Shown piece after piece: positions 43,769 through 61,300 of a DNA stretch of 64,000 bases (positions are counted from its first letter, which is position 1; every line of letters begins with the position of its first letter). This stretch comes from Prosthecomicrobium sp. N25. GTDB taxonomy: Bacteria > Pseudomonadota > Alphaproteobacteria > Rhizobiales > Ancalomicrobiaceae. The notes under the pieces were generated by a model, which was not told the DNA's origin, ran no database searches, and was given only the letters and a program-made list of their open reading frames with translations. The position numbers and the translations under genes are program-made. The DNA is taken from assembly GCF_037203705.1 (NCBI RefSeq), contig NZ_JBBCAT010000001.1, positions 1,771,418 to 1,835,417 of the forward strand. The letters are read 5' to 3'.

Positions 43769-45228
43769 TGGTCGATCTGGTCAATTCGCCCGAGGACATG
43801 AAGGCTCGTCGCCTGGAAGCGCGCCGCCGCCGTGCGGAGCGCGAGGGGCTGACGGTCGCCGACATCCCCGAGGACGTCGACCCTGCGGCGATCGAGACGC
43901 CCGGCACCCGGCAGGAGGCCAAGCCGGCCGAACCGGTCGGCAACCTCGTCGAGATCGGAAACCGCAAGGGACGCGTCAAGGAAGGCGGGGCAAACCCGCG
44001 GCCGGACCAGGACAATTCCCCCGATGCCCTGCCGATCCCGGAGATCGCCTCGAGCCGTCTCCTCGCCCGCCTCGGCGAGGTCAAGGCCAAGAAGGTCGCG
44101 GCCGGCAAGGCCGACAAGGGTACGCGGACCCGCAGCGCCGCATTCTGGTCCTTCGTCCTGATGGTCATCCTCCCGGCGATCGGCATCTCTGCCTACCTCT
44201 ATCTGTGGGCGATCGACCAGTACCACTCCGAATTCCGCTTCGCGGTCCGCAATGCGCAGACCTCCAGCGCCAGCGCCGGTGCGCTGGCCGGCATGGTCGC
44301 CTCGCCGGCCGCCTCGCTGCCCGACCTCGCCGATAGCTACATCGTGACCGAGTATCTGCAATCGCGCGAATTCGTAGAGGACCTGAACAAGGCTGTCGAC
44401 CTGCGCAGCGTCTACAGCATCGGGCGCGCGGACTACTGGTACCGCATGGACAACGACGTGTCGGTCGAGAAGATGACCAAGTACATGAATTCCATGATGG
44501 CGGTCACCTTCGACATGTACACGGGCATCGTCAGCGTCCGCGTCCGCGCCTTCTCGGCCGAGGACGCCCGCCGCGTCGGCCAGCAGATCCTGAAGATGAC
44601 CGAGGCCCTGGTGAACAACATCACCCAGCGCGCCCGGCGAGACCTCGTCCGCGACAGCGAGCGCGAGGTGGAGAATGCCGAGAACCGCCTGCGCAATGCG
44701 CGCCTCGCCGTGGAGAAGTATCAGAGCGAGATCGGGGCGGTCGACCCGACGGCGGTCGCCACGGCCAACCAGGTCAACATCAACGCCCTGGAGGCGGAGG
44801 CGACGCGGCTCAAGGCGGAGCTGAAGCAGCTCCTGCAGACGATGAGCCCCCAGTCGCCGCGCGTGGTGGTGCAGCAGAGCCGCGTCGACGCGATCGAGAA
44901 GCAGATCACCGACGAGAAGGCCAAGGTGGCGGTGAGCAAGCGTGCCGGCCCGGCCCTGTCCGCCCAGCTCATGCGCTACCAGGAACTCGTCACCGAGCGC
45001 GAATTCGCCCAGACCGCCTACGTCACCGCACTCTCGGCGCTGGAGCGGAGCCGGATCGACAGCGAGCGCAATCAGCGTTATCTGGCTTTGTTCGTGTCGC
45101 CCCGCGAGGCTCAGGATTCGGAGTATCCGGAGCGCGGACGCTATGCGTTCATCGCCTTCCTGGCGCTGTTCGCCATCTGGGCCATCAGCTTCATGGTGAC
45201 GGGTTCGATCAGGGATCACATGCGCTAG
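43768..45228 (+). CDS. Capsule export inner-membrane/periplasmic protein (KpsE/RkpR family)
   Basis: A 486-residue PCP-type adaptor that spans the periplasm between the ABC exporter and the outer-membrane channel. Order: about 125 cytoplasmic, charged, probably disordered residues; TM1 near 126-148; a periplasmic domain with long coiled coils (residues 300-420); TM2 near 460-480. The GTG start overlaps the kpsT stop. Y-H-S-E-F-R-F-A-V-R after TM1 is typical of KpsE/RkpR. The N-terminal extension is long for the family. Confidence 0.9.
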   Translation: MVDLVNSPEDMKARRLEARRRRAEREGLTVADIPEDVDPAAIETPGTRQEAKPAEPVGNLVEIGNRKGRVKEGGANPRPDQDNSPDALPIPEIASSRLLARLGEVKAKKVAAGKADKGTRTRSAAFWSFVLMVILPAIGISAYLYLWAIDQYHSEFRFAVRNAQTSSASAGALAGMVASPAASLPDLADSYIVTEYLQSREFVEDLNKAVDLRSVYSIGRADYWYRMDNDVSVEKMTKYMNSMMAVTFDMYTGIVSVRVRAFSAEDARRVGQQILKMTEALVNNITQRARRDLVRDSEREVENAENRLRNARLAVEKYQSEIGAVDPTAVATANQVNINALEAEATRLKAELKQLLQTMSPQSPRVVVQQSRVDAIEKQITDEKAKVAVSKRAGPALSAQLMRYQELVTEREFAQTAYVTALSALERSRIDSERNQRYLALFVSPREAQDSEYPERGRYAFIAFLALFAIWAISFMVTGSIRDHMR

Positions 45229-45303: not shown

Positions 45304-46485
45304 GTGACGACATCCAGTATTGCGTTCAGGTCGTTTCGCGGCTTTTCGGCCGCCGCCGGGCTCGCTTGCGCGCTCGCCGGGTGCTCGACGCTTCCCTCGG
45401 ACGGCCCGTCCGCCAACGTGATCACCAGCGCCGCGGTCGAGCAGGGCCTCGCCGTCGAGAACTACCTGATCCTGCCGCTCGACGAGCCCGTCGTGAAGGT
45501 CGTCGGCCCCTGGCGGCCGCGCGTCTTCGCCGACCGCTTCTCGATTCGCTCGGGCCCCCGCCGGCTGCCGCTCGGCATCGGCGACGTGGTCGACATCCGG
45601 ATCATGGAGGCCGGCGACAACGGCCTCTTCGCCAACACCCAGACGCGCGGCGCCCAATTCCAGGTCCAGATCGACGAGACCGGCAATCTCTTCGTGCCCT
45701 ATGTCGGCCGCACCAAGGGCGCCGGCAAGACCGCCGAGCAGTTGCGCGCCTCGATCCAGGAAGGCCTCGCCGACAAGGCGATCCAGCCGCAGGTCCTCGT
45801 CAACGTCGTCAACAGCCAGGCGAACTCGACCACCGTGGTGGGCGACGTCGCCAAGCCCGGCCGCTATCCGGTCAACGTCGGCGGCACCAAGCTCCTCGAC
45901 GCGGTCGCGCTGGCCGGCGGCTCGCGCTTCACCACCTACGAGACGACCGTCACCCTGAAGCGCGGACACGACACCGCCTCGATCCTTCTCGAGGACCTGG
46001 TCCTGGTGCCGGAGAACAACGTCTACCTGCAGGCCGACGACGAGATCCTGCTCTCCTTCGCGCCGCAGACCTACACGCTGCTCGGCGCCGTGCCCGAGCC
46101 CCGCGAGATCAAGTTCGAGACCAAGACCGTCACCCTCGCCGAGGCCATCGGCCGGGGCGGGGGCCTCAACACGCTCGCCGCGGACGCCACCGGCGTCTTC
46201 GTGTTCCGCTTCGAGGAGCCGAGCCTCGTCCGCCGCATCCGGCCCGACCAGCCCTGGACGGGACCCGCCAAGGTGCCGACGGTCTATCGGCTGAACCTGT
46301 CGGATCCCAAGGGCTTCTTCATCGCCAAGTCCATGTGGGTCCGCGACAAGGACATCATCTACGTGGCCACGGCGCCCTCGGTGGAGTTCGCCAAGTTCGT
46401 CGACATCGTCAACCGGACGACGGGCGGCGCCCGCGGCGTCCTCGGCGTGGCGACCGACCTCAGAGTTCTCGGCAAGGGCAAGTAG
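45304..46485 (+). CDS. Outer-membrane polysaccharide export lipoprotein (Wza/KpsD-like)
   Basis: A 393-residue export-channel protein, lipidated at C27 (lipobox A-L-A-G-C). It has the Poly_export domain (near 95-190: L-G-I-G-D-V-V-D-I, Y-V-G-R-T-K-G-A-G-K-T-A) and two SLBB domains (V-V-G-D-V-A-K-P-G-R-Y-P near 183; T-Y-T-L-L-G-A-V-P-E-P near 258). GTG at 45304 gives a proper signal peptide. It follows the KpsE-like gene by 75 bp and should complete the envelope-spanning conduit. Confidence 0.92.
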   Translation: MTTSSIAFRSFRGFSAAAGLACALAGCSTLPSDGPSANVITSAAVEQGLAVENYLILPLDEPVVKVVGPWRPRVFADRFSIRSGPRRLPLGIGDVVDIRIMEAGDNGLFANTQTRGAQFQVQIDETGNLFVPYVGRTKGAGKTAEQLRASIQEGLADKAIQPQVLVNVVNSQANSTTVVGDVAKPGRYPVNVGGTKLLDAVALAGGSRFTTYETTVTLKRGHDTASILLEDLVLVPENNVYLQADDEILLSFAPQTYTLLGAVPEPREIKFETKTVTLAEAIGRGGGLNTLAADATGVFVFRFEEPSLVRRIRPDQPWTGPAKVPTVYRLNLSDPKGFFIAKSMWVRDKDIIYVATAPSVEFAKFVDIVNRTTGGARGVLGVATDLRVLGKGK

Positions 46486-46543: not shown

Positions 46544-47839
46544 ATGCTGTCCAGACCGTCCCCGGCCCCCGCTGAGGCGCCCGCGGCCCTCCCGCGGGCC
46601 GGGACCCGCTCGTTCCTCTTCCTCCTCGGCCCCTGCTCGCCGTTCCAGGCTCGCCTCGCCCCCGCGCTTGAGGCCGAGGGCCACCGCGTCGTGAAGGTTC
46701 TGCTCCACGCCGGCGACGCGCTCTTCTGGCGCCGCCCGGCGCTGCACTATCGCGGTGGCCTCGACGCCTGGCAGGACCATGTCGGCCGCCTCATGGACGA
46801 GCACGGCACCACCGACCTGGTCGTCCACAACGAGAGCCGGGAGTATCACCGCCTCGCCATCCTTGAGGCGCGCCGGCGCGGCATCAGGGTGCTGGTCTTC
46901 GAGATGGGCTACTTCCGGCCCGACTGGATCACCTTCGAGCGCGACGGCCTGTCGGCCCTCTCCCATTTTCCGCGCGACCCGGCCCTCGTCCGAGCCCTCG
47001 CCGCCGAGGCGCCTGAGCCCGACTTCTCCGTCCGCTTCCGCACGCCGTTCCTCAGGTTCGCGCTGAACGACCTTGCCTACCATCTGGGCGAGGTGTTCGG
47101 CACGCCCCTCTATCCGCGCTACCGGCGCTACGCGATCGACAACCCGGTCGTCGAATACCTGCTCTGGGGCAGGAAGCTGCTGACCCGCCGGCGCCCCGAG
47201 GCCGCGGCCGCGGCGGTCGTCGAGAAGCTGGAGGCCGGGGCCGCGCCCTGGTACGTCCTGCCCCTCCAACTCTCCGGCGACTTCCAGATCCGCGCCCACT
47301 CGCCCTTCCCGGACATGCCGGCGGCCATGCGCGCCGTCGTCGCCTCCTTCGGTCGCCACGCCCCCGCCGCCGCGCGCCTCGTCGTCAAGCTGCACCCCCT
47401 CGACAACCTGCGGACCCCTTGGGCGAAGCTCGTCGCGGAAGCGGCCGCGGAGGCCGGCGCGGCCGGCCGGGTCGACTGCATCGACGGCGGTGACCTCGCC
47501 CGCCTGATCGCCGGGTCGGAGGGCGTCGTCACGGTCAATTCCACGGTCGGCATCGCCGCGATCCAGGCCGGCCGCCCGACGATCGCGCTCGGCGGCGCCG
47601 TCTTCGACATCCCCGGCCTGACCTTCCAGGACGGCCTCGACCGCTTCTGGGCCGGCCGCCGCCCGCCGGACCGCGATCTGGCGTCCGCCTTCGTCCGCGC
47701 GCTCGTCCACACCACCCAGATCCGCGGCGACTACTACACCGAGCCCGGCATGGCCGCCGCCGTCCAGGGCGTCGTCGAGCGCCTGAAGGCGGGGCTGCCG
47801 GACCTGCCCGAACGCATCGCCCGCATGAGGAGCGCATGA
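46544..47839 (+). CDS. Capsule Kdo-transferase-like protein, KpsS family (copy 1)
   Basis: A 431-residue KpsS-family protein. KpsS adds the first beta-Kdo to phosphatidylglycerol in group 2 capsule assembly. Landmarks: F-L-F-L-L-G-P-C near residue 25, F-E-M-G-Y-F-R-P-D-W-I-T near 123, and the H-P motif V-V-K-L-H-P-L-D-N near 285, then V-N-S-T-V-G. A Pro/Ala-rich 20-residue lead precedes the fold. It overlaps the SDR by 4 nt (ATGA). About as similar to copy 2 (50963) as to any KpsS. Confidence 0.87.
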   Translation: MLSRPSPAPAEAPAALPRAGTRSFLFLLGPCSPFQARLAPALEAEGHRVVKVLLHAGDALFWRRPALHYRGGLDAWQDHVGRLMDEHGTTDLVVHNESREYHRLAILEARRRGIRVLVFEMGYFRPDWITFERDGLSALSHFPRDPALVRALAAEAPEPDFSVRFRTPFLRFALNDLAYHLGEVFGTPLYPRYRRYAIDNPVVEYLLWGRKLLTRRRPEAAAAAVVEKLEAGAAPWYVLPLQLSGDFQIRAHSPFPDMPAAMRAVVASFGRHAPAAARLVVKLHPLDNLRTPWAKLVAEAAAEAGAAGRVDCIDGGDLARLIAGSEGVVTVNSTVGIAAIQAGRPTIALGGAVFDIPGLTFQDGLDRFWAGRRPPDRDLASAFVRALVHTTQIRGDYYTEPGMAAAVQGVVERLKAGLPDLPERIARMRSA

Positions 47840-48663
47840 ACCCCTCCGCCGACCCCCGCACCGTCGTCGTGACCGGTGCCTCCAGCGGCATCGGCGCCGC
47901 CCTGGCGCTGGCGCATGCCCGCCCCGGAGTGGCTCTGGCGCTGACCGGCCGCGACCCCGTCCGCCTCGCCGCCGTGGCCGCCGGGGCTCGCGCCAAGGGC
48001 GCGACGGTGCGCGAGGGCATCTTCGACGTCCGCGAGTTGGACCGCCTCGCCGCCTTCCTGGCCGACGTCGACGATACCGGCCCCATCGATGTCCTCTATG
48101 CCAATGCCGGCGTCGCCGCCGGCCTCGGTCCCGACCGCTCCGCCGAGCCGCTCGACACCGCCATGCGTCTCGTCGACGTGAACCTGAAGGGCGTGATCGC
48201 CACCGTCTCGGCGGTGGTGGAGCGCATGCGCGCGCGCCGCCGCGGCCATATCGTGCTGGTCTCCTCGCTCGCCGGCCTCCAGGCCCATCCGGACATGCCG
48301 ACCTATTCGGCCAGCAAGGCGGCGGTGCGCTTCTACGGCGACTCGCTCCGCCAGTGGCTGCGCCCCGCCGGCGTGGCCGTGACGGTCGTCTGCCCCGGCT
48401 TCGTCACCTCCCCGATGGCGAACCGCCACAAGGGGGCCAAGCCCTTCGAGATCTCGGCCGACCGCGCCGCCGCCCTGATCGTCCGCGGGGTCGCCCGCCG
48501 ACGCCCGCTGATCGCCTTCCCGTGGCCGCTGGTCCTGTCGATCTGGCTCTCCAACCTGGTCCCGACCGTCATCGCCGACCTCGGCATGCGCGGCTTCGCC
48601 GCCGTGGTCGACCCCGACGACGAGACCGCTCGCGAGCGCGAGAGGCGCCGGCAGGCCCCGTGA
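47836..48663 (+). CDS. Short-chain dehydrogenase/reductase (RkpH-like by context)
   Basis: A 275-residue SDR: cofactor motif T-G-A-S-S-G-I-G (near residue 13), N-A-G near 92, catalytic Ser (L-V-S-S-L) and Y-S-A-S-K. A membrane-seeking segment lies near the C-terminus (W-P-L-V-L-S-I-W-L-S-N-L). It is translationally coupled at both ends to capsule genes (ATGA and GTGA overlaps). In S. meliloti the rkp region has an SDR, RkpH; orthology here is inference. Substrate might be an acyl chain or a sugar. Confidence 0.85.
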   Translation: MNPSADPRTVVVTGASSGIGAALALAHARPGVALALTGRDPVRLAAVAAGARAKGATVREGIFDVRELDRLAAFLADVDDTGPIDVLYANAGVAAGLGPDRSAEPLDTAMRLVDVNLKGVIATVSAVVERMRARRRGHIVLVSSLAGLQAHPDMPTYSASKAAVRFYGDSLRQWLRPAGVAVTVVCPGFVTSPMANRHKGAKPFEISADRAAALIVRGVARRRPLIAFPWPLVLSIWLSNLVPTVIADLGMRGFAAVVDPDDETARERERRRQAP

Positions 48664-50765
48664 CGAGCCCGACCGAACCCGGCCGCCGCCCCGCCGGGCG
48701 AGAGCCCGCCCCGGCCCCGGGCCCCGGGCTCCGGCCCGCCCCGGTCCGCGCCGCCGTCTTCCTGCCGGAGCCTTGGGCCGCGGCCGCCTGGCTGCCCGCC
48801 CTCTGCGACGCCGACGAGGTGGTCCCCTCGCCGGGCGACGACGAGGGCGGCAGGGTGGATCGCGTGATCGGCGGCCTGGACCCGCGGCTCGAGGCACGCG
48901 GGCGCGATCATGCGCGCCGGTTCCGCCTGCCGTTCCTCCGCCTAGAGCCGCTGCCCCTCGGCCCCGCCTCGCCGCCCTCGCTCGGGATCGCCCACATCGC
49001 CGCCAGGCTGTGCGCAGAGCCGATTCCCGGCGAGCCCGTGCCGGCCGGCGCACGGACCCGGGCAGGGCAGGGCGCCGCCGTCCCCTCGGCGGCCGTCCTG
49101 CAGGGCATCCTCGACCTCGTGCTCGGCGACCGCCTGCTCGCCGCCTCGGCCGCCGCCCTGGACGACCCGGCCGAGGCCCACAGCCCGGTGACCGCGCTGG
49201 TCGCCGACGCCGCGGACGACGGCACCGCCGACCCCGACCGTCTGCTCGGCCTGCTCGCCGAGGCCCGCGCCCGCCACGGCGACGGCGCGGTCGCGGTCGT
49301 GCCCGTGGATCCGAGGGCTGCGGCCGGCCGACCCCCCATCCTCGCCGCCCTCGCGGTTCGGGAGGGACTGCGCCTGCGCCCCGACCGCGGCCGGCCGGAC
49401 CTCCTCGCCGGCATCGACACGGTCTATGCCGCCGGCGGCCTCCTAGGGCTCGAGGCCCTGCTCGCCGGCCGCCGCGCCGTGCTGGCCGCGGCGCCCGACT
49501 GGCTCGCCCCCTTCGCGGGCCGGCGCCTCGCGCCCGCCGAGCGGCTCGACCTCGCACGGATCGCCTTCGTGGACGACGCCCGCTATGCCGACCCGTTCAC
49601 GGGCGCCGCCGTCGACGCCGAAGCCGGCCTGGGCCTCCTCGCCTGGCTCCGCCGGCGCTACGCCGGACGCCGCGCGAACCGGATCGCCTACGGCTTCTCG
49701 GCCCAGAAGGCCCGGACCGCCCGCACCTTCCTGGAGGGATGGGAGGCCTCCGTCGCCGTGGCGTCGCGTCCGGCCTCCGCGATCCGCGCGGCGGCCCGGA
49801 GCGGCGCGCGGCTGACCGTCTGGGGCACCCGCGGCGGCGCCGCCCTCGACGAGGCCGCGGCTCGGGCCGGCCTCCGGATCGACCGCCTGGAGGACGGCTT
49901 CATCCGATCGGTCGGCCTCGGCACGATGCAGACCATCCCGGCCTCCCTCGCCCTCGACGACGAGGGCCTCTACTACGACGCCCGGCGCCCCTCCCGCTTC
50001 GAGCGGCTCGCCGAGACGGCCGTCTTCGACGAGGCCCTGCTGATGCGCGCCCGCGCCTTGCGCGAGGCGATCGTCGCCGCCCGGGTGACCAAGTACAACC
50101 TCGCCGCCGAGGCGCTCGACTTCCGCGCCCGGTCCGGCGGGCGGCCGGTCATCCTGGCGCCCGGGCAGGTGCCCGACGATGCCGCCATCCGTACCGGCAC
50201 CTTCGCGGTCACCGGCAACCTGGCGCTCCTCGCCGCGATCCGGAAGGAGCGGCCCGACGCCTACATCGTCTACAAGGAGCATCCCGACCTGGTGACCCGG
50301 AGCCGCGCCGGCTGGCTCCCCGACCGGCTCGTGCTGGAGCACGCCGATGAGGTGCTCCGGCGCGGCGACGCCATCGCGGCCATCGAGGCCGCCGACGAGG
50401 TCCACACGATGACCTCGCTCGCCGGCTTCGAGGCGCTCCTGCGCGGCGTGCCGGTGACCACCTGGGGGCTGCCCTTCTACGCCGGATGGGGGCTCACCGC
50501 GGACCGCGAGCACACGCCGCGCCGCCGCCGCCGCCTCTCCCTCGACGAACTGGTCGCCGTCGCGCTGATTCTCTATCCGGCCTATGTCGACCCGGTCTCG
50601 CGCCTGCCCTGCGAGGTGGAGGACATCGTCCGCCGCATCGCCCAGATCCGCGAGGGACGGGTCGCGCCGCCCCCGGCCACCCGCTTCCGGGCCCTGGTGC
50701 GCGCGAGCGTGGTGGCCGAGGCCTGGATCCGACACCTTCTCGGGCACCGTCTGACGCCGCGCTGA
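48660..50765 (+). CDS. KpsC-like Kdo transferase, N-terminal module degenerate
   Basis: A 701-residue two-module protein; KpsC normally has two Kdo-transferase sites. The C-terminal module (from about 340) is complete: L-E-D-G-F-I-R-S (E near 411), Y-K-E-H-P-D (His near 541), P-F-Y-A-G-W-G-L and D-P-V-S-R-L-P-C-E-V-E-D. The N-terminal module is recognisable only in outline: E-D-G-F is replaced by L-E-P-L-P-L, K-S-H-P-D by V-P-V-D-P-R, and Y-A-G-W-G by D-W-L-A-P-F. It therefore probably has one active site. GTG start overlaps the SDR stop. Confidence 0.87.
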   Translation: MTSPTEPGRRPAGREPAPAPGPGLRPAPVRAAVFLPEPWAAAAWLPALCDADEVVPSPGDDEGGRVDRVIGGLDPRLEARGRDHARRFRLPFLRLEPLPLGPASPPSLGIAHIAARLCAEPIPGEPVPAGARTRAGQGAAVPSAAVLQGILDLVLGDRLLAASAAALDDPAEAHSPVTALVADAADDGTADPDRLLGLLAEARARHGDGAVAVVPVDPRAAAGRPPILAALAVREGLRLRPDRGRPDLLAGIDTVYAAGGLLGLEALLAGRRAVLAAAPDWLAPFAGRRLAPAERLDLARIAFVDDARYADPFTGAAVDAEAGLGLLAWLRRRYAGRRANRIAYGFSAQKARTARTFLEGWEASVAVASRPASAIRAAARSGARLTVWGTRGGAALDEAAARAGLRIDRLEDGFIRSVGLGTMQTIPASLALDDEGLYYDARRPSRFERLAETAVFDEALLMRARALREAIVAARVTKYNLAAEALDFRARSGGRPVILAPGQVPDDAAIRTGTFAVTGNLALLAAIRKERPDAYIVYKEHPDLVTRSRAGWLPDRLVLEHADEVLRRGDAIAAIEAADEVHTMTSLAGFEALLRGVPVTTWGLPFYAGWGLTADREHTPRRRRRLSLDELVAVALILYPAYVDPVSRLPCEVEDIVRRIAQIREGRVAPPPATRFRALVRASVVAEAWIRHLLGHRLTPR

Positions 50766-50962
50766 CGAACTTCGCGGAAACACTCGGAAAATTGACCCGT
50801 CCGACCCGCGTCGCTATAGGAGGGGCGCCCGGTCCCAGGACCACACCTCCCGCCGAATCCGGGCTCGGTTCCGAGATCCGCCCCTGGCCGCCGCGCGCCT
50901 CGCGCTTCCGCCCGGTGCGACGCGAACGGAGCGCCGGCCCGGGGGCGGAGCACCAGTGATCG

Positions 50963-52246
50963 ATGTCCGAACGCCGCGTCTTTCTCTTCCTGCAAGGGCC
51001 GCCGTCCCGCTTCTGGTACGAGCTCGCCGAAGCGCTCGACGCCGCCGGTCACAAGACGTTGCGGGTCAACCTGTCGGCCGGGGACTGGCTCTACTGGCGC
51101 AAGCGCGGGGCGATCAACTACCGCGGCAGCTTCAAGGCCTGGCGGTCCTGGCTCGAAGCCCTGATCGAGCGCGAGGGCGTGACCGACATCCTCTACTACG
51201 CCGACCGGCTGCCCTACCACGTCGTCGCCAACGAGATTGCGCGCCAGCGGGGCATCTACGTGACGGCGGTGGAGTTCGGCTACCTGCGCCCGGACTGGAT
51301 CACCGTCGAACGGGACGGCATGTCCACCTACTCGCATTTTCCGAACGATCCGGAGATCATCCGCCGGATCGCCGACCATGCGCCGGACCCGGACTTCGAG
51401 ATCAAGTACCCCTATACCTTCTTCCAGGAGGCCTCGAACGAGGTCATCTACAACCTCGCCAGCCTGTTCCTGTCCTGGATGAGCTTTCCGCGCTACCACG
51501 CGGACAAGTACTACAACCCGCTGAAGGACTATCTGAGCACCCTCTGGCGCCTCATCCGCGACCGCTGGCAACGCAAATACGCCAAGCGCGTCATGCGCGA
51601 GGTGATCCTGGGCCCGCGGCCCTTCTACATCTTCGCCCTTCAGCTCCAGTCGGACTACCAGATCCGCGACAACTCCCCCTACAGCCGCCTGCACGAGGCG
51701 ATCGACCAGACCATTGCTTCCTTCGCCCGCAACGCCCCGCTCGGCACCGTGCTGGTCTTCAAGGTGCACCCGCTCGACAACGGCCTGGAGCGCTGGCAGA
51801 AGGTCGTCATGGCCTCGGCCCGCCGCCACGACGTGCGCCCCCGCGTCCGCGTCATCGACGGCGGCAATCTCAATCGCCTAGTCGAGACGGCGCTCGGCAC
51901 CATCCTGGTCAACTCGACGGTCGGCCTCTACGCCATCCGGGCCGGCTGTCCGCTGATGGTCCTGGGCGTCGCCGTGTTCGACATCCCCGGACTGACCTTC
52001 CAGGGCACGCTGGACGAGTTCTGGACCGAGGCCGAGCCCCCGGACGAGGAACTGCGCCTGAAGTTCATCCGCGCCCTGGCGGCCACCACCCAGGTCAAGG
52101 GCAGCTTTTACAACCGCGAGGGGCGCAAGGTCGCCATCGCCGAGATGGTCCGCCGCCTCGAGGCGCGCACCGTCAACGAGCCGGGCGCCTTCATCGACCC
52201 GCCCCCTCGCCTGGAAAAGGCCCGCCGCCTCGGCATGCGCGTCTGA
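50963..52246 (+). CDS. Capsule Kdo-transferase-like protein, KpsS family (copy 2)
   Basis: A 427-residue KpsS-family protein starting at the ATG at 50963. F-L-F-L-Q-G-P-P-S at the N-terminus, V-E-F-G-Y-L-R-P-D-W-I-T near 107, V-F-K-V-H-P-L-D-N near 273, and V-N-S-T-V-G-L-Y-A-I. It parallels copy 1 over the whole length and retains the same H-P-L-D-N motif, so both may be active. It is 197 bp after KpsC copy 1 and could have its own promoter; nothing else is seen in that gap. Confidence 0.88.
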   Translation: MSERRVFLFLQGPPSRFWYELAEALDAAGHKTLRVNLSAGDWLYWRKRGAINYRGSFKAWRSWLEALIEREGVTDILYYADRLPYHVVANEIARQRGIYVTAVEFGYLRPDWITVERDGMSTYSHFPNDPEIIRRIADHAPDPDFEIKYPYTFFQEASNEVIYNLASLFLSWMSFPRYHADKYYNPLKDYLSTLWRLIRDRWQRKYAKRVMREVILGPRPFYIFALQLQSDYQIRDNSPYSRLHEAIDQTIASFARNAPLGTVLVFKVHPLDNGLERWQKVVMASARRHDVRPRVRVIDGGNLNRLVETALGTILVNSTVGLYAIRAGCPLMVLGVAVFDIPGLTFQGTLDEFWTEAEPPDEELRLKFIRALAATTQVKGSFYNREGRKVAIAEMVRRLEARTVNEPGAFIDPPPRLEKARRLGMRV

Positions 52247-52332
52247 CGCAGCATCGCCGCGCCGCTCCCCCACGGCTCCGTTCGAACCCGTCCGGTCCCC
52301 GCGCGTTGACCCTCCGACAATGGAGGTGAAGC

Positions 52333-52908
52333 ATGGGACTTCTCGACTCGTTTCTGAACCGCGGCGCCGGCCCCGCCATGGGCGGCGGCAGCGCGACCTC
52401 GCCGATGGTGAAGGCGCTCATGCTGCTGCTCGCCGCGAAGGCCTTCCAGAGCTACCGCTCTGGCGGCTCCACCCCTGACGCCACCCGCCAGGGCGGCGGG
52501 CTCGGCGGCATGCTGGGCGGCCTCTTCGGCGGCGGCCAGCAGGCCGGCGGCGGTCTCTTCGGCGGCTCCTCGGGAGGCGGGCTCGGCGGCGGCCTCGGCG
52601 GGCTCCTGGGCGGCCTCGCCGGCGGCGGCTCGGGTGGCCTCGGCGGCCTTTTCGACCAGTTCCGCCGCAACGGCTACGGCGACCACGTCGACAGCTGGGT
52701 CGGTACCGGCCAGAACCGCCGGATGGCTCCGGAGGAACTGGCCCGCGTGCTCGGGCCCGAGGCCATCGAGGAACTCGAGCGGCGCACCGGCATGCCGCGT
52801 AAGCAGCTCCTCGCCGAACTGGCGGACGAGCTGCCCGACGCCGTCGACCAGGTAACCCCCGACGGACGCTTCCCGACCGAGCAGGAACTCGCCTCGCGCT
52901 TCCATTGA
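52333..52908 (+). CDS. yidB: YidB family (DUF937) protein
   Basis: A 191-residue protein with the YidB layout: short N-terminal helix (G-L-L-D-S-F-L-N-R), a long Gly-rich middle (residues 55-110), and a C-terminal folded part with D-S-W-V-G-T-G-Q-N-R, L-A-R-V-L-G-P-E-A-I-E and L-P-D-A-V-D-Q-V-T-P-D-G. The function is unknown. The ATG at 52333 is behind AATGGAGGTG. It is not obviously related to capsule export. Confidence 0.88.
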   Translation: MGLLDSFLNRGAGPAMGGGSATSPMVKALMLLLAAKAFQSYRSGGSTPDATRQGGGLGGMLGGLFGGGQQAGGGLFGGSSGGGLGGGLGGLLGGLAGGGSGGLGGLFDQFRRNGYGDHVDSWVGTGQNRRMAPEELARVLGPEAIEELERRTGMPRKQLLAELADELPDAVDQVTPDGRFPTEQELASRFH

Positions 52909-52951
52909 GGCGAGCTCGCCGGCCGTGCCCCCCGGGGCACGGCCGCCGGCC

Positions 52952-54112
52952 TCACGCGGCCTTCGGCAGGAACCGCTCGGCCAGATGCACCCAGTAGCTC
53001 GCGCCGCGGGTCAGGATCGCGTCGTTGAAGTCGAACTTCGGGTGGTGCAGCATCGGCCCGTCGCCGGCGCCCAGCATGAAGTAGCAGCCCGGCTTCTCCT
53101 GCAGCATGAAGGCGAAGTCCTCGCTGCCCGGCGTCGGCCGGACCACGTCCCGGACGCGCCCCTCGCCGGCGACCTCCACCGCGACCGCGCGCGCGAAGGC
53201 CGTCTCGGCCTCGGCGTTGACCAGCACCGGATAAATGCGGCGATAGTCGACCTCGGCGGTGCAGCCGTAGCTCAGCGCCTGCGCCATGGCGATCTCGGTG
53301 ATTCGCCGTTCGAGCTGGTCGTGGATCTTCTCGTCGAAGCTCCGCACGCTGAGCTTCAGGAGCGCGGTCTCGGGGATGACGTTCGAGGCCTGTCCCGCCT
53401 GGAAGGCGCCGACCGTCACCACCGCGGGATCCTGCGGATCGATGTTGCGCGACACGACGGACTGCAGGGCCATCACGGTCGAGGCGCCGGCGACGACCGG
53501 GTCGAGCGTCTGCTCCGGATGCGCCCCATGGCCGCCCTTGCCGCGAATGGTGATCTCGACGTGGTCGGCGGCGGCCATCAGCACGCCGGGCTTGAACAGG
53601 AAGTCTCCGGCCGGCCGGTTCGGCCAGTTGTGGAGCGCGAAGACGGCATCGCAGGGAAAGAGCTCGAAGAGCCCGTCGTCCATCATCCGCCGCGCCCCCG
53701 CGAGGCCCTCCTCGGCCGGCTGGAAGAGCAGGTGGACGGTCCCGTCGAAGCGGCGCGAGCGGGCGAGCTGGCGCGCCGCCGCGAGCAGGATCGTCGTGTG
53801 CCCGTCATGCCCGCAGGCATGCATCTTGCCCGGTGTCTGGCTGCGGTAGGGGAGGCCGGTCTCCTCCTCGATCGGCAACGCGTCCATGTCGGCGCGGATG
53901 CCCAGGCTGCGCCCCCCGGTGCCGGACCGGAGCGTCCCGACCACGCCCGTGCCGCCGAGTCCGCGCCGCACCTCGTAGCCCCATTCGCCGAGCAGTCGCG
54001 CCACCAGGTCGCTCGTCTCGAACTCCTCGTAGCCGAGTTCCGGGCGGGTGTGCAGGTGGCGGCGCAGCGACACGAACTCGTGCTCGTCCGCGGCGATTTC
54101 AGGAAGGATCAT
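52952..54112 (-). CDS. M20 family amidohydrolase (hippurate-hydrolase type)
   Basis: A 386-residue metal-dependent amidohydrolase of the M20D group, cleaving N-acyl amino acids or related amides. Metal ligands are visible: M-H-A-C-G-H-D-G-H (near 102-110), Q-P-A-E-E-G (near 137), A-L-H-N-W-P and H-H-P-K-F-D-F-N near 355. The lid domain carries K-G-G-H-G-A-H-P-E. Start at the ATG at 54112. A terminator hairpin lies about 110 bp upstream on the same strand. The substrate is not known. Confidence 0.9.
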   Translation of the reverse strand: MILPEIAADEHEFVSLRRHLHTRPELGYEEFETSDLVARLLGEWGYEVRRGLGGTGVVGTLRSGTGGRSLGIRADMDALPIEEETGLPYRSQTPGKMHACGHDGHTTILLAAARQLARSRRFDGTVHLLFQPAEEGLAGARRMMDDGLFELFPCDAVFALHNWPNRPAGDFLFKPGVLMAAADHVEITIRGKGGHGAHPEQTLDPVVAGASTVMALQSVVSRNIDPQDPAVVTVGAFQAGQASNVIPETALLKLSVRSFDEKIHDQLERRITEIAMAQALSYGCTAEVDYRRIYPVLVNAEAETAFARAVAVEVAGEGRVRDVVRPTPGSEDFAFMLQEKPGCYFMLGAGDGPMLHHPKFDFNDAILTRGASYWVHLAERFLPKAA

Positions 54113-54219
54113 CGAGGCTGCTCCGAAAGAACGCCGCACCCTGCCTCGCCTGCGCACCCGCTGGCAAGGGCCGGGTGATCGCGCCAGGCCTGCGCGCGCC
54201 GCACGGGGGGCGTTCGGGC

Positions 54220-54248
54220 AAAAAAAAGGGCCGTCTATGCGGCGGCCC
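54220..54248 (-). terminator. Minus-strand intrinsic terminator
   Basis: On the minus strand GGGCCG, a 9-nt loop, CGGCCC and then eight T residues: a textbook Rho-independent terminator. No protein gene ends just before it. It could end a short RNA begun near 54300-54340, or act as an attenuator for the M20 gene. A GCCC-TCCG-GGGC mini-hairpin and CTCCTCCC (54263-54256) precede it. Confidence 0.75.
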
Positions 54249-54328
54249 AAGTCATGGGAGGAGACGCCCCGGAGGGCAAGGCCGAACCGAGAATCGATCC
54301 GACCGAGGATCAGTATGCATGAGGGAGG

Positions 54329-54344
54329 TTAACAAACAATTAAC
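54329..54344. promoter_or_regulatory. CtrA-type binding site, TTAA-N7-TTAAC
   Basis: TTAACAAACAATTAAC fits the CtrA consensus TTAA-N7-TTAAC exactly, and the opposite strand reads TTAA-N7-TTAACC. TTAA is rare in this GC-rich DNA. It lies in the 547-bp gap between the divergent M20 and helicase genes. It could drive a short minus-strand RNA that ends at 54220, or the helicase. The rest of the gap holds no gene I can support. Confidence 0.55.
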
Positions 54345-54659
54345 GCCACGTTCGGGCGACCGTCTTTCCACAATATGTTCAAGCATTGGTGACTTGCTCA
54401 CGTAAGGTCATCAGCAAACCGTACCCGATGGCATTCCGGTCCGGTCCCTCCCGCCCGCTCATGGCGCCAGTATCGGATGCTGGTGTAACAGGGCGAATAC
54501 TGACCGGACTCGGCCCGTACCGGGGCTCCGCCCTGACATCTCAACGTATTGGCAAGTCGCAGGAATCGCCTCGGCGCCTGCCCGCTTGCCGAGCCCGCCC
54601 CGAGCCGCTAGGGTTGCGGCTATTCTCGTTTCGTTCTCGCATACCGGGAGGGAGTGTCC

Positions 54660-55766
54660 GTGGACTGGTCGAGCGAGCAGGATGCAGCCCTCAAGGCCGT
54701 CGCCGACTGGCTCAAGGACAAGCGCCAGCAGGTCTTCCGCCTGTTCGGCTACGCCGGCACCGGCAAGACGACGCTCGCCCGGCACGTGGCCGGGGGAATC
54801 GACGGGGACGTCGCCTTCGGCGCCTTCACCGGCAAGGCCGCCATGGTGATGCGCTCGAAGGGCTGCGAGGGTGCCACCACGATCCACAGCATGATCTACC
54901 GGCCGCGCCGCGCCGCGGGCGAGGACGAGGAGGAGGAGACCTTCTCCTTCGCTCTCAACCGCCAGAGCGATGTCACCAAGGCGAAGCTGATCGTCATCGA
55001 CGAATGCTCGATGGTCGACGAGGAGCTCGGCCGCGACCTGCTCTCCTTCGGCAAGCCGACCCTGGTCCTCGGCGACCCGGCCCAGCTTCCGCCCATCAAG
55101 GGCGGCGGCTTCTTCACCGAGGCCGAGCCCGACGTGATGCTGACCGAGGTCCACCGGCAGGCGGCCGACAACCCGATCGTCCGCATGTCCATGGACATCC
55201 GCGAGGGGCGCCGCCTGGAGATCGGCACCTACGGGCAGAGCCGCGTCATTCCCCGCCGCGCGATCGACGCAGAGACCATCCTGGCCGCCGACCAGGTGCT
55301 GGTCGGCCTCAATCGCACCCGCCACAACTACAACAAGCGGATCCGCGAGTTGCGCGGCTACACCAGCCCCCATCCGGAAGTCGGCGAGAAGCTCGTCTGC
55401 CTGCGCAACGACAAGTCCAAGGGGCTGCAGAACGGCGGCATCTTTCGCGTCACGCGCCGCAAGGACCCCAAGAGCGGCTACTTGAAATACGACGTCGCCC
55501 CCGACGAGGCCGGCGGCAAGGCGCGGATCCACGTCTCCGTCCTGCCCGACTTCTTCGAGGGCACCGAGGGCGACCTGTCCTGGCAGATGCGCCGCTCATC
55601 CGACGAGTTCGACTTCGGCTACGCCCTGACGGTCCACAAGGCCCAGGGCTCCCAATGGGACGACGTCGTCCTGTTCGACGAGGCCTTCGCATTCCGGGAA
55701 CATCGCGAGCGCTGGCTCTACACCGGCGTCACCCGCGCGGCGGAGCGGCTGACGATCGTCGTGTGA
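54660..55766 (+). CDS. ATP-dependent helicase, RecD/UvrD-C2 type
   Basis: A 368-residue SF1 helicase-like ATPase. Walker A G-Y-A-G-T-G-K-T-T (near residue 30), F-T-G-K-A-A, Walker B L-I-V-I-D-E-C-S-M-V, motif III L-V-L-G-D-P-A-Q-L-P-P, and a C-terminal UvrD_C_2 part with A-L-T-V-H-K-A-Q-G-S-Q-W and Y-T-G-V-T-R-A. It is close in layout to phage Dda/RecD2-like stand-alone helicases. Of the GTGs at 54654 and 54660, the second has better spacing to GGGAGG. Confidence 0.9.
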   Translation: MDWSSEQDAALKAVADWLKDKRQQVFRLFGYAGTGKTTLARHVAGGIDGDVAFGAFTGKAAMVMRSKGCEGATTIHSMIYRPRRAAGEDEEEETFSFALNRQSDVTKAKLIVIDECSMVDEELGRDLLSFGKPTLVLGDPAQLPPIKGGGFFTEAEPDVMLTEVHRQAADNPIVRMSMDIREGRRLEIGTYGQSRVIPRRAIDAETILAADQVLVGLNRTRHNYNKRIRELRGYTSPHPEVGEKLVCLRNDKSKGLQNGGIFRVTRRKDPKSGYLKYDVAPDEAGGKARIHVSVLPDFFEGTEGDLSWQMRRSSDEFDFGYALTVHKAQGSQWDDVVLFDEAFAFREHRERWLYTGVTRAAERLTIVV

Positions 55767-55797
55767 ACGACCGGCCGGCGCGCCGGGGCCCCTGTCG

Positions 55798-57924
55798 TCA
55801 GGCCCCGTGGCGCTCGTCCAGCCGGATCCGGATCGCCTGCCGCGCCCGCGAGGCGATCTGCAGGATCCGCCCGAGAAGCCCGGGGGGCCGGTGGCTGCGG
55901 AATCGGCCCCGGCGCAGGGTCTCTATCCGCGCGAAATAGTCCTCCGCCTCGCACGGGATCCCCGAGACGGGGTCGATGTAGCGCGTGTAGAGCGCGAAGG
56001 TTACCGCCGCCAGCTGATCCGCGTCGAGCCGGCGTGCGCGCCGCGGGATCGGCTCCCGGTCCTCCGTGAGACCCCAGCCGGCGTAGAACGGGGCGCCCCA
56101 GGCGACGACCCGCATTCCGGCCATCACGGCGTCGAAGCCGTGCTGCGAGGTCATGACGTGAACCTCCTCGGCGAGGTCGAGGAGACCGGCCAGACGGTCG
56201 TCGCGGATCAGGTGGTCGGCCCCCTCGCGCAGCACCGCGGCGGGCAGCCAGCCGCCCCGGCGCCGGCTCGCGTCCTCCGCCGCCTCGAAATAGACCAGGA
56301 AGGCGTCCGGCCGTTCGGCCCTCACCGCCGCCAGGAGGCTCTTTGTGTTCGCGACGCGCGTGGTGCCGAGGCGCACGGCCGGGCTCCCGGCCGGCTCCCC
56401 GACCACGAGCACGACCGGGCGCTGCCCCGCCTTGCCGGCGATGTCGCGCCGGACGGTCCCGAGGTCGACGGCGGCGCGGGCCTCGATCGCGAGATAGCGC
56501 TCGCGCAACGCCCGCCCGCGCGCGACGAGCAGTGGGGAGAAATCGGTCGAGGCGACCAGCGCCTCGAAGCGAGAGGGACGCGAGGCGTCGAGATGCAGGC
56601 CGACGTCGTCGACCGCCACGGCGGGCAGGGGAACGAACGGCGTCTCCAGCCCGTACGGCTTCAGCACGCTCTTGGCGAACCGGACCACGCCGACGTCCCG
56701 CCGCTGCGCCTCCGCCTCCAGGGCGGCCGGGATCCGGTCCGTCCAGACCAGGAGCGATGCCGCGGCCTTCTCGGCGACCGCCAGGGCGGAGTCCGCCTTG
56801 GCGAAGACGAGCCGCCCGGGCCCGCCGCCGAAGATCGATTGGGCGATCCGCCGCTTCTCTGGCCCGAGGCCGACGCCGACGAGATCGCGCGGGTTGCGCG
56901 ACTTCTCGCGCCATTCCGCCAGCCGGTCCATGGCGGTGAGGACGTGGAGGGGCTCGAATCGCACCGGGTCACCGTAGCGGGGATAGGCGACGAGCGCGGC
57001 CGCCGCCAGGCTGTCGGCGTTGGCGCCCGGGCTTCGCCGCTTCAGCCAGGCCTGCGCGCGCGGCTCCACGCCGCTGTCGTCCGTGATGCCCCACCCGGCA
57101 TAGAAGGGCGCGCCGAAGCAGCGCACCGGCTTGCCCACGAGGATCGCCTCGAAGCCGAGCCCGCTCGACACGGTCCAGACCTCGTCGACGAAGTCGAGCA
57201 GGTCGTAGGGATCGACGTTCTCCGCGACCACCGCCACCCCGCGCGCCCGCGCCTCCGCCTCCAGGTAGCCGCGCGTCCGGCCCGCCACCACGTCGGGGTG
57301 GGACTTCACCACGATGTCCGCCGCCGCGAATCGCTCCAGCGCCGTGTCGAGCATGCGCCGGAAGCTGCGCGCGCCGGCGCCGGCTCCCGTGACCGCCTGA
57401 TCGTTGAAGGTCTGGTCGACGAGGATCACCCGCCGCCGGCGGCCGAGCACCGCCTCCGCGGTCGCGGTCGCCGCGACGTTGTACTTGGAGAGACGGAGGG
57501 CGATCATCTTCGCCCGCGCCTCGCGTCCGGTCGCGATCAGCCCCGGGTCGTTCCCGGCCCGGCCGATCAGCCATTCGAGTCGCGACGGCTGGCGGGCCTC
57601 GTAGTAGATGCCGAGGTCGTCCAGCACGATGGAAATCGGCGGCAGCTTGAAGGCGGCCCCGACGGAGCGCAGGAACCCGTCCTCGAGCGCCACGTAGGGA
57701 ACGTGATGACGGGCGGCGAAGATTCGGGCGCGGGTCGCGGTCGCCTTGTAGCCCCAGCCGACCACCGCATCGAGCACCTGCGGCTCCAGTTTCGCCTTGG
57801 CGCGCGGCACGAACTCTTCAGTGCCGAGAAGGGTTCCGAGATGCGGAATCCCGATGATTCCCTTCGAAAACGCCGTCACGCGACGCAAATCGAGCTTCTC
57901 GCGCGCCGCAACCACCCGAATCAT
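55798..57924 (-). CDS. KpsC-like Kdo transferase, C-terminal module degenerate
   Basis: A 708-residue two-module KpsC homologue. The N-terminal module is complete: L-E-D-G-F-L-R-S (E81), V-K-S-H-P-D (H209), P-F-Y-A-G-W-G-I (near 275). In the C-terminal module E-D-G-F-L-R-S is replaced by R-F-A-K-S-V-L (415-421) and K-x-H-P-D by Y-F-E-A-A-E-D (545-551), although Y-A-G-W-G-L and D-P-V-S-G-I-P-C-E remain. So only the N-terminal site should work. It diverges from the PKS with 391 bp between, and its position on the other strand separates it from the other capsule genes. Confidence 0.88.
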   Translation of the reverse strand: MIRVVAAREKLDLRRVTAFSKGIIGIPHLGTLLGTEEFVPRAKAKLEPQVLDAVVGWGYKATATRARIFAARHHVPYVALEDGFLRSVGAAFKLPPISIVLDDLGIYYEARQPSRLEWLIGRAGNDPGLIATGREARAKMIALRLSKYNVAATATAEAVLGRRRRVILVDQTFNDQAVTGAGAGARSFRRMLDTALERFAAADIVVKSHPDVVAGRTRGYLEAEARARGVAVVAENVDPYDLLDFVDEVWTVSSGLGFEAILVGKPVRCFGAPFYAGWGITDDSGVEPRAQAWLKRRSPGANADSLAAAALVAYPRYGDPVRFEPLHVLTAMDRLAEWREKSRNPRDLVGVGLGPEKRRIAQSIFGGGPGRLVFAKADSALAVAEKAAASLLVWTDRIPAALEAEAQRRDVGVVRFAKSVLKPYGLETPFVPLPAVAVDDVGLHLDASRPSRFEALVASTDFSPLLVARGRALRERYLAIEARAAVDLGTVRRDIAGKAGQRPVVLVVGEPAGSPAVRLGTTRVANTKSLLAAVRAERPDAFLVYFEAAEDASRRRGGWLPAAVLREGADHLIRDDRLAGLLDLAEEVHVMTSQHGFDAVMAGMRVVAWGAPFYAGWGLTEDREPIPRRARRLDADQLAAVTFALYTRYIDPVSGIPCEAEDYFARIETLRRGRFRSHRPPGLLGRILQIASRARQAIRIRLDERHGA

Positions 57925-58093
57925 GCTCCCCTGATCGCGCCTCAGCTCTAACGCTGTACTGTAATGTCAATCGGTGATTTCAGGTGCCTGCCCTGACCGT
58001 CGGCCTACATAAGCCGCGGTCCCTCGGGAAGTCTACCTTCAATCCGCTCCGGCGCCATGGTTACAAAACCGATAGAAGACGTGATCACGGCGG

Positions 58094-58204
58094 TGTTGCG
58101 GCCCCGTCGCACGATGGGGTATCACGCAACAGGTGTTGTACGGGTGGGGAAAAGCCCCGTAAGGGGTACACGGCAGCGGTTCTTTTCGTCGCAAACCGCC
58201 GTGT
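58094..58204 (+). promoter_or_regulatory. Highly structured leader upstream of the PKS
   Basis: Three adjacent folding elements. First, TGTTGCG (58094-ish to 58100) pairs with CGCAACA (58125-58131) around an inner CCCCGTCG/CGATGGGG stem. Second, GGGG-AAAAG-CCCC-GTAA-GGGG (58146-58166), where the C-tract can pair either way. Third, ACACGG+CGGTT (58168-58181) with AACCG+CCGTGT (58194-58204), eleven pairs with a CAG bulge. There is no T-run. The remaining gap (57925-58093, 58205-58315) shows no gene. Confidence 0.5.
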
Positions 58205-58315: not shown

Positions 58316-61300
58316 ATGACGACGATCCGACAGAATACCGCCGAACGCGACAGCGAAATCTCCATCGTCGGCACGGCGTGCCGACTGCCTTCGGCGCCCG
58401 ACGTCTCTTCGTTCTGGAGGCTCCTCGAGGAGAGGCGCTGCGCGGTCGGCCGAATCGGCCGGGACCGATTCGCCACCGAGCGCTACCTGCACCCGGACAA
58501 GTCGGTCCCGGGCAAGACCTACACCTTCAGCGCCGGCCTCCTCGACGACGTCTTCGGCTTCGACCCGGGCTTCTTCGGCATCAGCCCGCGCGAGGCGATG
58601 CAGATGGATCCGCAGCAGCGAATCCTGCTGCAGGTCACTTACGAGGCGCTCGAGAATGCCGGCCTGAAGCCCTCGAAGCTCGCCGGCGAGAAGGTCGGCG
58701 TCTTCGTCGGCGCCTCCTCGTCCGACTACATGATGCGCTTCTTCGCCGACCTGTCGGCGATCGACGCCCAGATGATGACCGGCAACACCCTGTCGATCAT
58801 CTCCAACCGCATCTCCTACATCTTCGACCTGCGCGGCCCGAGCTTCACGGTCGACACCGCCTGCTCGTCGTCCCTCGTCGCCCTCCATGAGGCCGCCGAG
58901 GCGATTCGCGCCGGCCGCATCGACACCGCCATCGTGGCCGGCGTCAACGTGCTCGCCTCGCCGACCCCCTTCATCGGCTTCGCGCGCGCCTCCATGCTGT
59001 CGCCGACCGGCCTCTGCCGGGCGTTCGACGCCAACGGCGACGGCTACGTCCGCTCAGAGGGCGCGGTCTCGCTCGTCCTGAAGTCCGCGGCCCGGGCCCG
59101 CGCCGACGGAGACGAGGTGCTCGCCACCATCGTCGGCACCGGCATCAATTCCGACGGCCGGACCGTCGGCCTGTCGCTGCCCTCCTCGGAGATGCAGGCG
59201 GCCCTCCTCGAGGAGGTCTATGGCCGATTCGGCATCGACCCGGACTGCCTCGCCTTCGTGGAGGCGCACGGCACCGGTACCCGCGTCGGCGACCCGGCGG
59301 AGGCCGGCGCCCTCGGCCGCGTGCTCGGCCAGAAGCGGTCCGCCCCGCTGCCGATCGGCTCCGTGAAGACCAACGTCGGTCACCTGGAGCCGGCCTCCGG
59401 CGTCACCGGCGTGCTGAAGTCGATCCTGGCCCTCCGCCACGAGGTCCTGCCGGCCTCGCTGCATTTCGAAACGCCGAACCCCGAGATCCCCTTCGCCGAG
59501 CTCAACCTCGCGGTCGCCCGCGACCCGGTCGCGATCCCGCGCGGTGTGCGTCCGCGGCACGCCGGCATCAACTCCTTCGGCTTCGGCGGCGCCAACGCCC
59601 ACGTGGTGATCCGCGAGGGCGAGCCTGTCCGCCCGTCCGTGACGTCCGTGGCGCCGGTCCCCCTCGTCATCAGCGCCCGCTCCCGCGAGGCCCTGAAGGC
59701 GCTCGCGACCGCCTACCGCGACCGCCTCGCCGCGGCGCGGCCCGTCGACGCCCAGGCCCTGGTCGCCCGCGCCGCCCACGGCCGCGACCGCTACGAGCAC
59801 CGCCTCGTCACCCTGCCGGCCGGCCGCGACCAGACCGTCGCGGCCCTGGACGAATGGCTCGCCGGCAACCGCTCGCCCCAACTCGTCGACGCCCGCGCCC
59901 CGGTCCGCGAGGGCGGCCTCGCCTTCGTGTTCTCCGGGAACGGCTCGCAGTGGGCCGGCATGGGCCGGGTCGCCTACCGGGTCAACGCCGATTTCCGTCG
60001 CTCCTTCGAGCGCGTCGACCGCGTCTTCATGGGCCGCGCCGGCTGGTCGCTGCTCACCACCATGTTCTCCGAGGAGATCGACAACGAGATCGAGCGGACC
60101 GAGGTCGCCCAGCCCCTGCTGTTCGGCATCCAGGTGGCGCTGGTCGAGGCCCTGGCGATCCGCGGCATCGAGCCGAGGGCCGTCGTCGGCCACAGCGTGG
60201 GCGAGGTCGCCGCCGCCTGGGCCGCGGGAGCGCTGGACCTGGCCGACGCGGTCAAGGTCATCCACGCCCGCTCCACCCACCAGGAGATCACCCGTCACCT
60301 CGGCGGGATGGCGGCCCTGCTGATGCCGGCTGCGGAGGCCCGCAAGGCGATCGCGGAGGCCGGCTTCCCCGGCATCGAGATCGCGGCGGTCAACAGCCCG
60401 CGCGGCGTCACCATCTCGGGCGCGATCGAATCGCTCGAGCAGTTCCTCAAGCATGCCCGCTCCAAGCGCTGGGCCTTCAAGCGCCTCGACCTGGACTACC
60501 CCTTCCATTGCGCGCTGGTGGACCCGATCCGCGAGCCCCTGATGGCGACGCTCGCCGGCATCGAGCCGCGCGGCTCGCGCATCCCCTTCGTGTCGACCGT
60601 CAAGGGCGCCGTCGTGCCCGGCGGGGCGCTGGACGCCCAGTACTGGTGGGACAACGTCCGCCAGCCGGTGGCCTTCGAGCCCGGCCTGCGCAGCCTCGCC
60701 GAGTCCGGCTACCGGGTCTTCCTGGAGATCGGGCCTCGTCCCGTCCTCGGCGCCTACGTGAACGACATCCTGAAGGACCTGAACCTCACCGGCGCGGTCC
60801 TCTCCAGCCTCGACCGCGCCGACGCCGAGGCGGTCGATCCGATCGCCCGCATCGCCTCCGCGGCGGTTGCCAACGGCGCCGCCGTGGCGGACGAGAAGCT
60901 CTTCGGCCCGCACGTGCGCGGCGGGGCCGGCCTGCCCAGCTACCCCTGGCAGAACCAGCCCTACCGGATCGCGTCGACGGACGAGGCCGCCACCACCTTC
61001 GCGCCCACGGCCCACCCGCTCCTCGGCGTGCAAGACCGCGCCGGCTCGCCCGCCTTCTTCAACCACCTGGACGTCGAGCTCCAGCCCTGGCTGGCGGATC
61101 ACAAGGTCGACGGCGCGGTCGTGGTGCCCGCGGCGGGTCTCGCCGAGATGGCGCTCGCCGCCGGCCGCGAGATCCTCGGTGCCGACCATCTCGAGCTCAA
61201 GGACTTCGACATCGTCCGCGCCCTCGTGCTCGAGGCGGGCGAGCCGCGCGAGGTCCAGGTCCGGATCTCGCAGGAGACGATGGGCGTCGACATCCTGAGC

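Follow-up and report, generated by a model that had tools for sequence, protein, structure and literature searches.

The window analyzed here is a 64,000-nucleotide stretch of DNA from Prosthecomicrobium sp. N25 (contig NZ_JBBCAT010000001.1, positions 1,771,418 to 1,835,417), and it encodes two homologues of KpsC, which we call copy A and copy B. KpsC makes the conserved root of lipid and 3-deoxy-D-manno-oct-2-ulosonic acid (Kdo) on ABC-transporter-dependent capsules, and its two linkage activities are usually fused in one protein. Each of the two homologues appears to retain only one of the two KpsC modules, the C-type module in copy A and the N-type module in copy B. The features of the two genes are as follows, numbered from the first nucleotide of the window (aa, amino acids).

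48660..50765, plus strand: copy A, KpsC homologue (PF05159), 701 aa; N half dead, C module live
48660..49673, plus strand: degenerate N-terminal half of copy A, aa 1-338, remnant of an N-type module (hhalign, bit scores)
49689..50642, plus strand: live C-type module of copy A, aa 344-661, E411/D507/H541; match to 6MGD, E 1.2e-63; 10/10 donor and catalytic positions kept
55798..57924, minus strand: copy B, KpsC homologue (PF05159), 708 aa; N module live, C module dead
56905..57876, minus strand: live N-type module of copy B, aa 17-340, E81/D175/H209; match to 6MGB, E 3.2e-65
55909..56889, minus strand: pseudo-enzyme C module of copy B, aa 346-672, A417/S514/A548; 0/10 donor and catalytic positions kept versus 43/58 other conserved positions; fold match to 6MGD

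Catalytic sites of the two copies

According to the available text of PMC10148158, KpsC acts by double displacement, with the Asp of a QxxxD motif as nucleophile, a Glu as base, and a His as acid, and the D160A variant has no detectable activity; the acid printed as His94 in the discussion of that paper should, by residue counting, be His194. Module type was assigned by the closest solved match, which is T. dismutans KpsC-C (6MGD, β2,7 linkage) for the C half of copy A and KpsC-N (6MGB, β2,4 linkage) for the N half of copy B. The triad E411/D507/H541 in copy A and the triad E81/D175/H209 in copy B are each accompanied by the donor contacts equivalent to Tyr93, Lys133, Tyr134, Gln156, Pro195, and Asp196. 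The set of triad and donor contacts that defines a dual-module KpsC of family GT107 is thus divided, the N-type set occurring only in copy B and the C-type set only in copy A, and neither polypeptide holds two live modules. A preliminary description of this DNA had located the live site of copy A in its C module, and E81 and H209 of copy B in its N module. Both assignments hold, and the nucleophile D175, absent from that description, can be added.

The C module of copy B has A417, S514, and A548 at the E/D/H positions, and so has lost base, nucleophile, and histidine; the two sister genomes, G001 and G002, have G, K, and P there instead. We saw no other residues that might compensate for these losses: the replacements differ between species and the nucleophile is gone, in keeping with the preliminary description, for which a takeover of the Glu and His roles would have been fatal. 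The N half of copy A has no equivalents of Trp42, Asp67, Lys133, Tyr134, Gln156, or His194; E96 aligns with the base and D187 with the nucleophile, in a stretch that is weakly aligned. A frameshift or misassigned reading frame was considered as the cause of this dead half and rejected, since the GC content by codon position fits the annotated frame throughout, and of the six frames the annotated one alone matches an N module.

In an alignment of 127 module rows, the E/D/H triad, by which we define an intact site, is present in 50 N-type and 64 C-type modules and missing from 13 rows. Lys133, Tyr134, Gln156, and Pro195, which lie outside that definition, are kept in 50/50 N-type and 64/64 C-type intact-triad modules, so that the loss of all four (0/4) from the dead C module of copy B is not attributable to chance. 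A PF05159 search of the whole genome gave seven matches (two KpsS homologues, one stretch of copy A, three of copy B, and one protein on contig C5) and revealed no further intact N- or C-type KpsC site; copies A and B together therefore provide one intact site of each type, as had been described. The contig C5 protein (L007:1393-3453; contig C5, 225332-226060) is a third KpsC-related protein, of about 690 to 780 aa. It has one diverged N-type-like module with a broken site, in which the His is replaced by Val and the Lys/Tyr donor residues are lost, and 775-aa frames in G001 and G002 give similar matches.

Relationship between the copies

A careful tree of C modules places copies A and B of the three genus genomes in a single clade (99/95) that is separate from the intact dual-module enzymes of their family. 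Because their C modules are sisters, the two genes look like duplicates of one dual-module KpsC, and both are present in 3/3 genus genomes examined. The N half of copy A lies on a branch of 5.6; grouping it with the N modules of copy B costs 3.6 log units, with a P value of 0.064 in the approximately unbiased test (p-AU). In a quick tree the N module of copy B falls with those of families f13 and f45 (96). The trees exclude modules below 100 bits or 200 residues, loci L007, L017, and L018, and near-duplicates; the careful trees exclude further rows, among them the long dead C module of L107.

A second pair of this kind occurs in a genome of another family, G099, whose paralogues are sisters in the trees of both modules (N, 100/99; C, 100/98). 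The first protein reads A/D/gap in its N module and EDH in its C module, the second EDH in its N module and QDH in its C module. Loss is targeted to the site in the dead half of the first (1/8 donor and catalytic positions kept versus 30/40 others, P = 0.0017). In family f13 (G109 and G073) a B-like gene occurs together with an A-like gene, the C module of the latter falling with those of f41 and f44. In the quick tree the dead C module of the B-like gene of G109 joins its copy B counterpart, on a very long branch (3.37); the B-like gene of G073 is cut by a contig end. A single origin for all half-dead pairs is not supported: the G099 pair stands as a separate clade, and the f13 pair draws on more than one lineage.

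Fate of the inactive halves

The ten donor and catalytic positions that we chose from the available text of PMC10148158 (E66, D67, Y93, K133, Y134, Q156, D160, H194, P195, and D196) are lost from the C half of copy B out of proportion to its other conserved positions (0/10 versus 43/58 kept; Fisher P = 1.1e-5), and the sister genomes each keep 1/10 and 41/58. The N half of copy A keeps 3/8 donor and catalytic and 9/40 other conserved positions. Ratios of nonsynonymous to synonymous substitution (dN/dS) between G001 and G002 were 0.050 (95% interval, 0.019 to 0.094) for the live N module of copy B, 0.082 (0.036 to 0.146) for its dead C module, 0.090 (0.045 to 0.152) for the live C module of copy A, and 0.233 (0.131 to 0.386) for the dead N remnant of copy A, the last interval just overlapping that of the live C module. 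Live modules of dual-module enzymes gave 0.078 to 0.172 in two between-genome pairs, and the modules of a paralogue pair inside G004 gave 0.200 and 0.278.

Structure models place both modules of copy B and the C module of copy A in the KpsC module fold: residues 346-672 of copy B match 6MGD (Z = 29.9; root mean square deviation, 2.3 over 289 residues), residues 15-342 of copy B match 6MGC (Z = 27.5), and residues 339-665 of copy A match 6MGD (Z = 30.9). Each model was built on an alignment of five sequences, intact relatives among them, and these may impose the fold. Mean predicted local distance difference test (pLDDT) scores were 72.3 for copy B and 64.9 for copy A, whose N half is the worse-predicted half and was barely probed. 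The dead C module of copy B keeps the acceptor-stacking Trp (W394) and the basic residues R397 and R556; the dead C module of G099 has no acceptor-stacking Trp.

The N half of copy A is still recognizable as an N module when the three genus sequences are compared with intact N modules (hhalign, 98.2%), and scores only 22 to 24 bits against N modules by itself. The G001 and G002 versions lack about 165 residues of it, in three aligned gaps covering the catalytic center. From these sequence comparisons we conclude that the C half of copy B is a constrained pseudo-enzyme, on the basis of one species pair, and that the N half of copy A is eroding. The suggestion that each dead half is kept therefore stands for copy B in the pair tested, and fails for copy A.

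N-terminal extensions ahead of live C modules were compared in other families. For two pairs from f42, one from f13, and two from f41, dN/dS was higher in the extension than in the live C module (with overlapping intervals in both f41 comparisons); an f34 pair showed no excess (0.213 versus 0.218). The f42 extension matches N modules (hhalign, 99.0%), as does that of f13 over part of the module (93.1%). Homology to N modules was not shown for the f34 and f41 extensions (15% and 4.7%), which were not counted as dead modules.

Gene neighborhood

The other capsule-related genes of the window are as follows.

43067..43768, plus strand: KpsT-like ABC transporter ATPase
43525..45228, plus strand: KpsE/BexC-like export protein (TIGR01010, 241 bits, below cut-off); true start uncertain, match from aa 210
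45304..46485, plus strand: KpsD-like polysaccharide export protein (Poly_export, SLBB)
46544..47839, plus strand: KpsS homologue 1, predicted first-Kdo transferase (PF05159; NCBIfam KpsS match below cut-off)
47836..48663, plus strand: short-chain dehydrogenase (SDR)
50963..52246, plus strand: KpsS homologue 2 (PF05159; NCBIfam KpsS match below cut-off)
58319..64000, plus strand: type I polyketide synthase, divergent from copy B, running off the window

The GTG start of copy A at 48660 overlaps the stop of the SDR gene, and copy A is bracketed by the SDR and KpsS homologue 2, with the other KpsS and KpsD just upstream and the KpsT- and KpsE-like genes also near. We take the SDR to occupy an RkpH-like position, a resemblance only. 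Two KpsS homologues also occur in several relatives, among them G057, G131, and G298, which have a live N-type module and no live C-type module that we found; given this recurrence, one of the two KpsS proteins may perform another Kdo step.

Copy B lies about 5 kb beyond copy A on the opposite strand and adjoins the polyketide synthase, the start of which is visible beyond the gap region at 57924-58319; by position alone we presume this gene to be RkpA/WcbR-like. The sister genomes share both neighborhoods, but a long distance separates the two in G001 and they fall on separate contigs in G002, so the short spacing between A and B seen in the window is not a general feature. The polyketide synthase neighbor was sought in the window, G001, G109, G184, G096, and G131. 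A type I synthase of about 2,500 to 2,650 aa stands next to the live N-type gene in G001, G109, and two f44 genomes (G184 and G096), and was not found beside that of G131 among the two long frames of a 9-kb piece. Despite this common neighbor, the tree does not place the N modules of f44 close to that of copy B.

Distribution

Among 397 genomes of the order, 76 match copy A (E 1e-40) and 78 match copy B (E 1e-35), 82 in all. These searches scored at most two candidates per genome, which makes absence in them weak; an N-module profile search that scored up to 28 candidates per genome, excluding G360 and G395, is the better test of absence. We tallied 66 of the 82 genomes by module state. Both modules are live in one protein in 19, and live N and C modules lie on separate proteins, with no dead module detected, in 13 (6 of f41 and 7 of f44). 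In 6 (the three genus genomes, G099, G109, and G073) the live modules are complementary and at least one of the proteins keeps a dead half. Another 20 have a live C module but yielded no live N module; they include G211, G381, and G108, which hold a diverged type of 446 to 449 aa (G381 and G108 with a further weaker match in the N-module profile search). The converse, a live N module with no live C module found, accounts for 5, of which G131 is B-like with a dead C half and G360 is called from the two-candidate searches. The remaining 3 are broken or cut (G003, G137, and G357). For the other 16 matching genomes, the N-module profile search gave a single match scoring as C-type in 10 and matches scoring as N- and as C-type in 4, leaving 2 unclassified (G289 and G366).

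In this sample, as judged from sequence, complementary pairs are uncommon and outright loss of one activity is commoner. That relatives always keep both copies is not borne out across the order, given the 20 and 5 single-activity genomes, and holds within the genus.

A wider search of 398 Pseudomonadota genomes gave matches in 40, of which 30 lie outside the order; among the best-scoring 22 outside loci, one per genome, 21 have both modules intact and L192 is without most of its N module. Several individual loci add to this picture. L140 in G225 encodes a KpsC whose N module is inactivated yet recognized (214 bits; triad gap/D/D or R/D/D, depending on the alignment), for which no live N partner was found in that genome, and which is perhaps an early stage of loss. 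KpsC reading frames in pieces, either pseudogenes or sequencing errors, occur at L168 (G137) and L166 (G357). In the f44 genomes G096, G159, G184, G205, G226, G245, and G304 the live N and C modules are encoded by two short separate genes some 10 kb from each other, an arrangement resembling the T. dismutans split pair.

Interpretation

The account that we consider probable is that a dual-module KpsC was duplicated in this lineage, that the copies then degenerated in complementary fashion, and that they now share the synthesis of the Kdo linker. Subfunctionalization after duplication, as originally proposed, is thus well supported in its anatomy and its history, the C modules being sisters; the division of labor between A and B is a prediction from sequence. 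In PMC10148158, as far as its available text goes, KpsS adds the first Kdo, after which KpsC-C and KpsC-N alternate. By analogy, KpsS would put the first Kdo on the lipid, and copy A, with the retained C-type site, would add β2,7-linked Kdo in alternation with β2,4-linked Kdo added by copy B, with the N-type site; the two polypeptides would thus match the work of one E. coli KpsC. The C half of copy B would be kept as a folded, noncatalytic module that holds the acceptor, binds a partner, or carries a C-terminal membrane-anchoring helix, and the N half of copy A would be disappearing.

Several observations weigh against this account. The genomes with a live C module only (20/66) or a live N module only (5/66) suggest that each activity can probably operate alone, in which case A and B would not have to act on the same chain. 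In the sister genomes copy B stands outside the kps operon, beside the polyketide synthase. The N half of copy A is too decayed for firm placement, and the tree neither establishes nor rejects its union with the N modules of copy B. Across the deeper divergence between G000 and G001, copy B retains 45% identity in its dead C module versus 64% in its live N module, so the constraint on the dead module is strong only in the one recent species pair, G001 and G002, and the f13 counterpart of that module has a dN/dS of 0.29 over 140 codons. In G099, targeted loss in the second protein, with the dead C module, is not significant (3/10 versus 37/58, P = 0.079), and that genome also has a third, single N module and a listed contamination of 5%.

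A more elaborate version, which we regard as speculative, holds that A and B form a hetero-complex in which the C module of copy B is a true pseudo-glycosyltransferase, with its fold, W394, R397, and R556 and no donor site, guiding the acceptor between the polypeptides, and that complementary inactivation arose more than once. If so, KpsC would be a natural system of repeated complementary inactivation of a dual-module transferase, with intact dual enzymes, half-dead pairs, and separate single modules all visible in one order.

Alternatively, the two proteins might have unrelated jobs, copy A with a KpsS making a short capsule Kdo linker and copy B transferring β-Kdo onto a different glycan or glycolipid, to whose synthesis the neighboring polyketide synthase perhaps contributes, so that their complementarity would exist on paper only. 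The single-activity genomes fit such a separation, as do the position of copy A, flanked by the SDR and a KpsS and closely preceded by another KpsS and by KpsD, and the synthase beside copy B (in the window, G001, and G109) and beside single N modules in G184 and G096. We think it unlikely, however: A and B are retained together throughout the genus, and rhizobial rkpA, itself a polyketide synthase gene, is tied to capsule lipid synthesis in the available portions of PMC3557214 and PMC3908369, so that the neighbor of copy B may also point to the capsule.

It is somewhat more doubtful that the C half of copy B is a decaying remnant without a role. Its rapid divergence over the G000-G001 split would suit decay, and the matching half is more degraded in f13 and f45 (145 and 64 bits), with the f13 ratio given above; its dN/dS between G001 and G002 nevertheless lies inside the live-module range of the dual enzymes, and the loss of every donor and catalytic position contrasts with the retention of most other conserved positions. 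Assembly of the pair by transfer from different sources, rather than by one duplication inside the lineage, is improbable, since it would account for the mixed affinities of the f13 pair and the quick-tree position of the copy B N module, but not for the sister relationship of the A and B C modules within the genus, apart from the intact enzymes of the same family.

If duplication followed by complementary degeneration is correct, these natural knockouts within long proteins separate the two linkages and yield candidate single-activity enzymes, and a pseudo-glycosyltransferase module under constraint calls for a noncatalytic role. Arrangements within the order range from dual enzymes through half-dead pairs and separate modules to single activities, so that comparison can test whether each linkage, and the fusion of the two, is needed.

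Comparison with known systems

No paralogous or half-dead KpsC was among the literature matches listed, and the terms "inactive" and "degenerat" were not found in the available portions of PMC12887879 and PMC11231755. E. coli KpsC (GT107; PMC10148158, as far as its available text describes it) resembles A and B in its two tandem modules, its basic C-terminal tail, and the catalytic and donor residues of its live modules. It differs in that both modules are live in one chain, whereas here there is one live module per chain, on two chains. The T. dismutans proteins KpsC-N and KpsC-C, described in the same source, share with A and B the allocation of the β2,4 and β2,7 modules to separate proteins, and their structures 6MGB and 6MGD are the closest solved relatives of the live halves. 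They are, however, single-module proteins, whereas A and B, each of about 700 aa, carry the body or remnant of the other module, a dead second half on each copy.

In the rhizobial rkp-1 capsule region, too, a type I polyketide synthase is found near capsule synthesis and export genes, according to the available portions of PMC3557214 and PMC3908369. The likeness here comes from the gene neighborhood, and the two f44 genomes examined for neighbors have separate single modules without dead halves.

The duplication-degeneration-complementation model of two-domain enzymes describes paralogues that have suffered complementary losses and are jointly retained. The genus pair shows such losses and joint retention in 3/3 genomes, and its members are sister paralogues by their C modules (99/95), with a p-AU of 0.064 on the N side. 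It departs from the model in that one of the lost modules appears to be a constrained pseudo-enzyme, and a second sister pair is present in G099.

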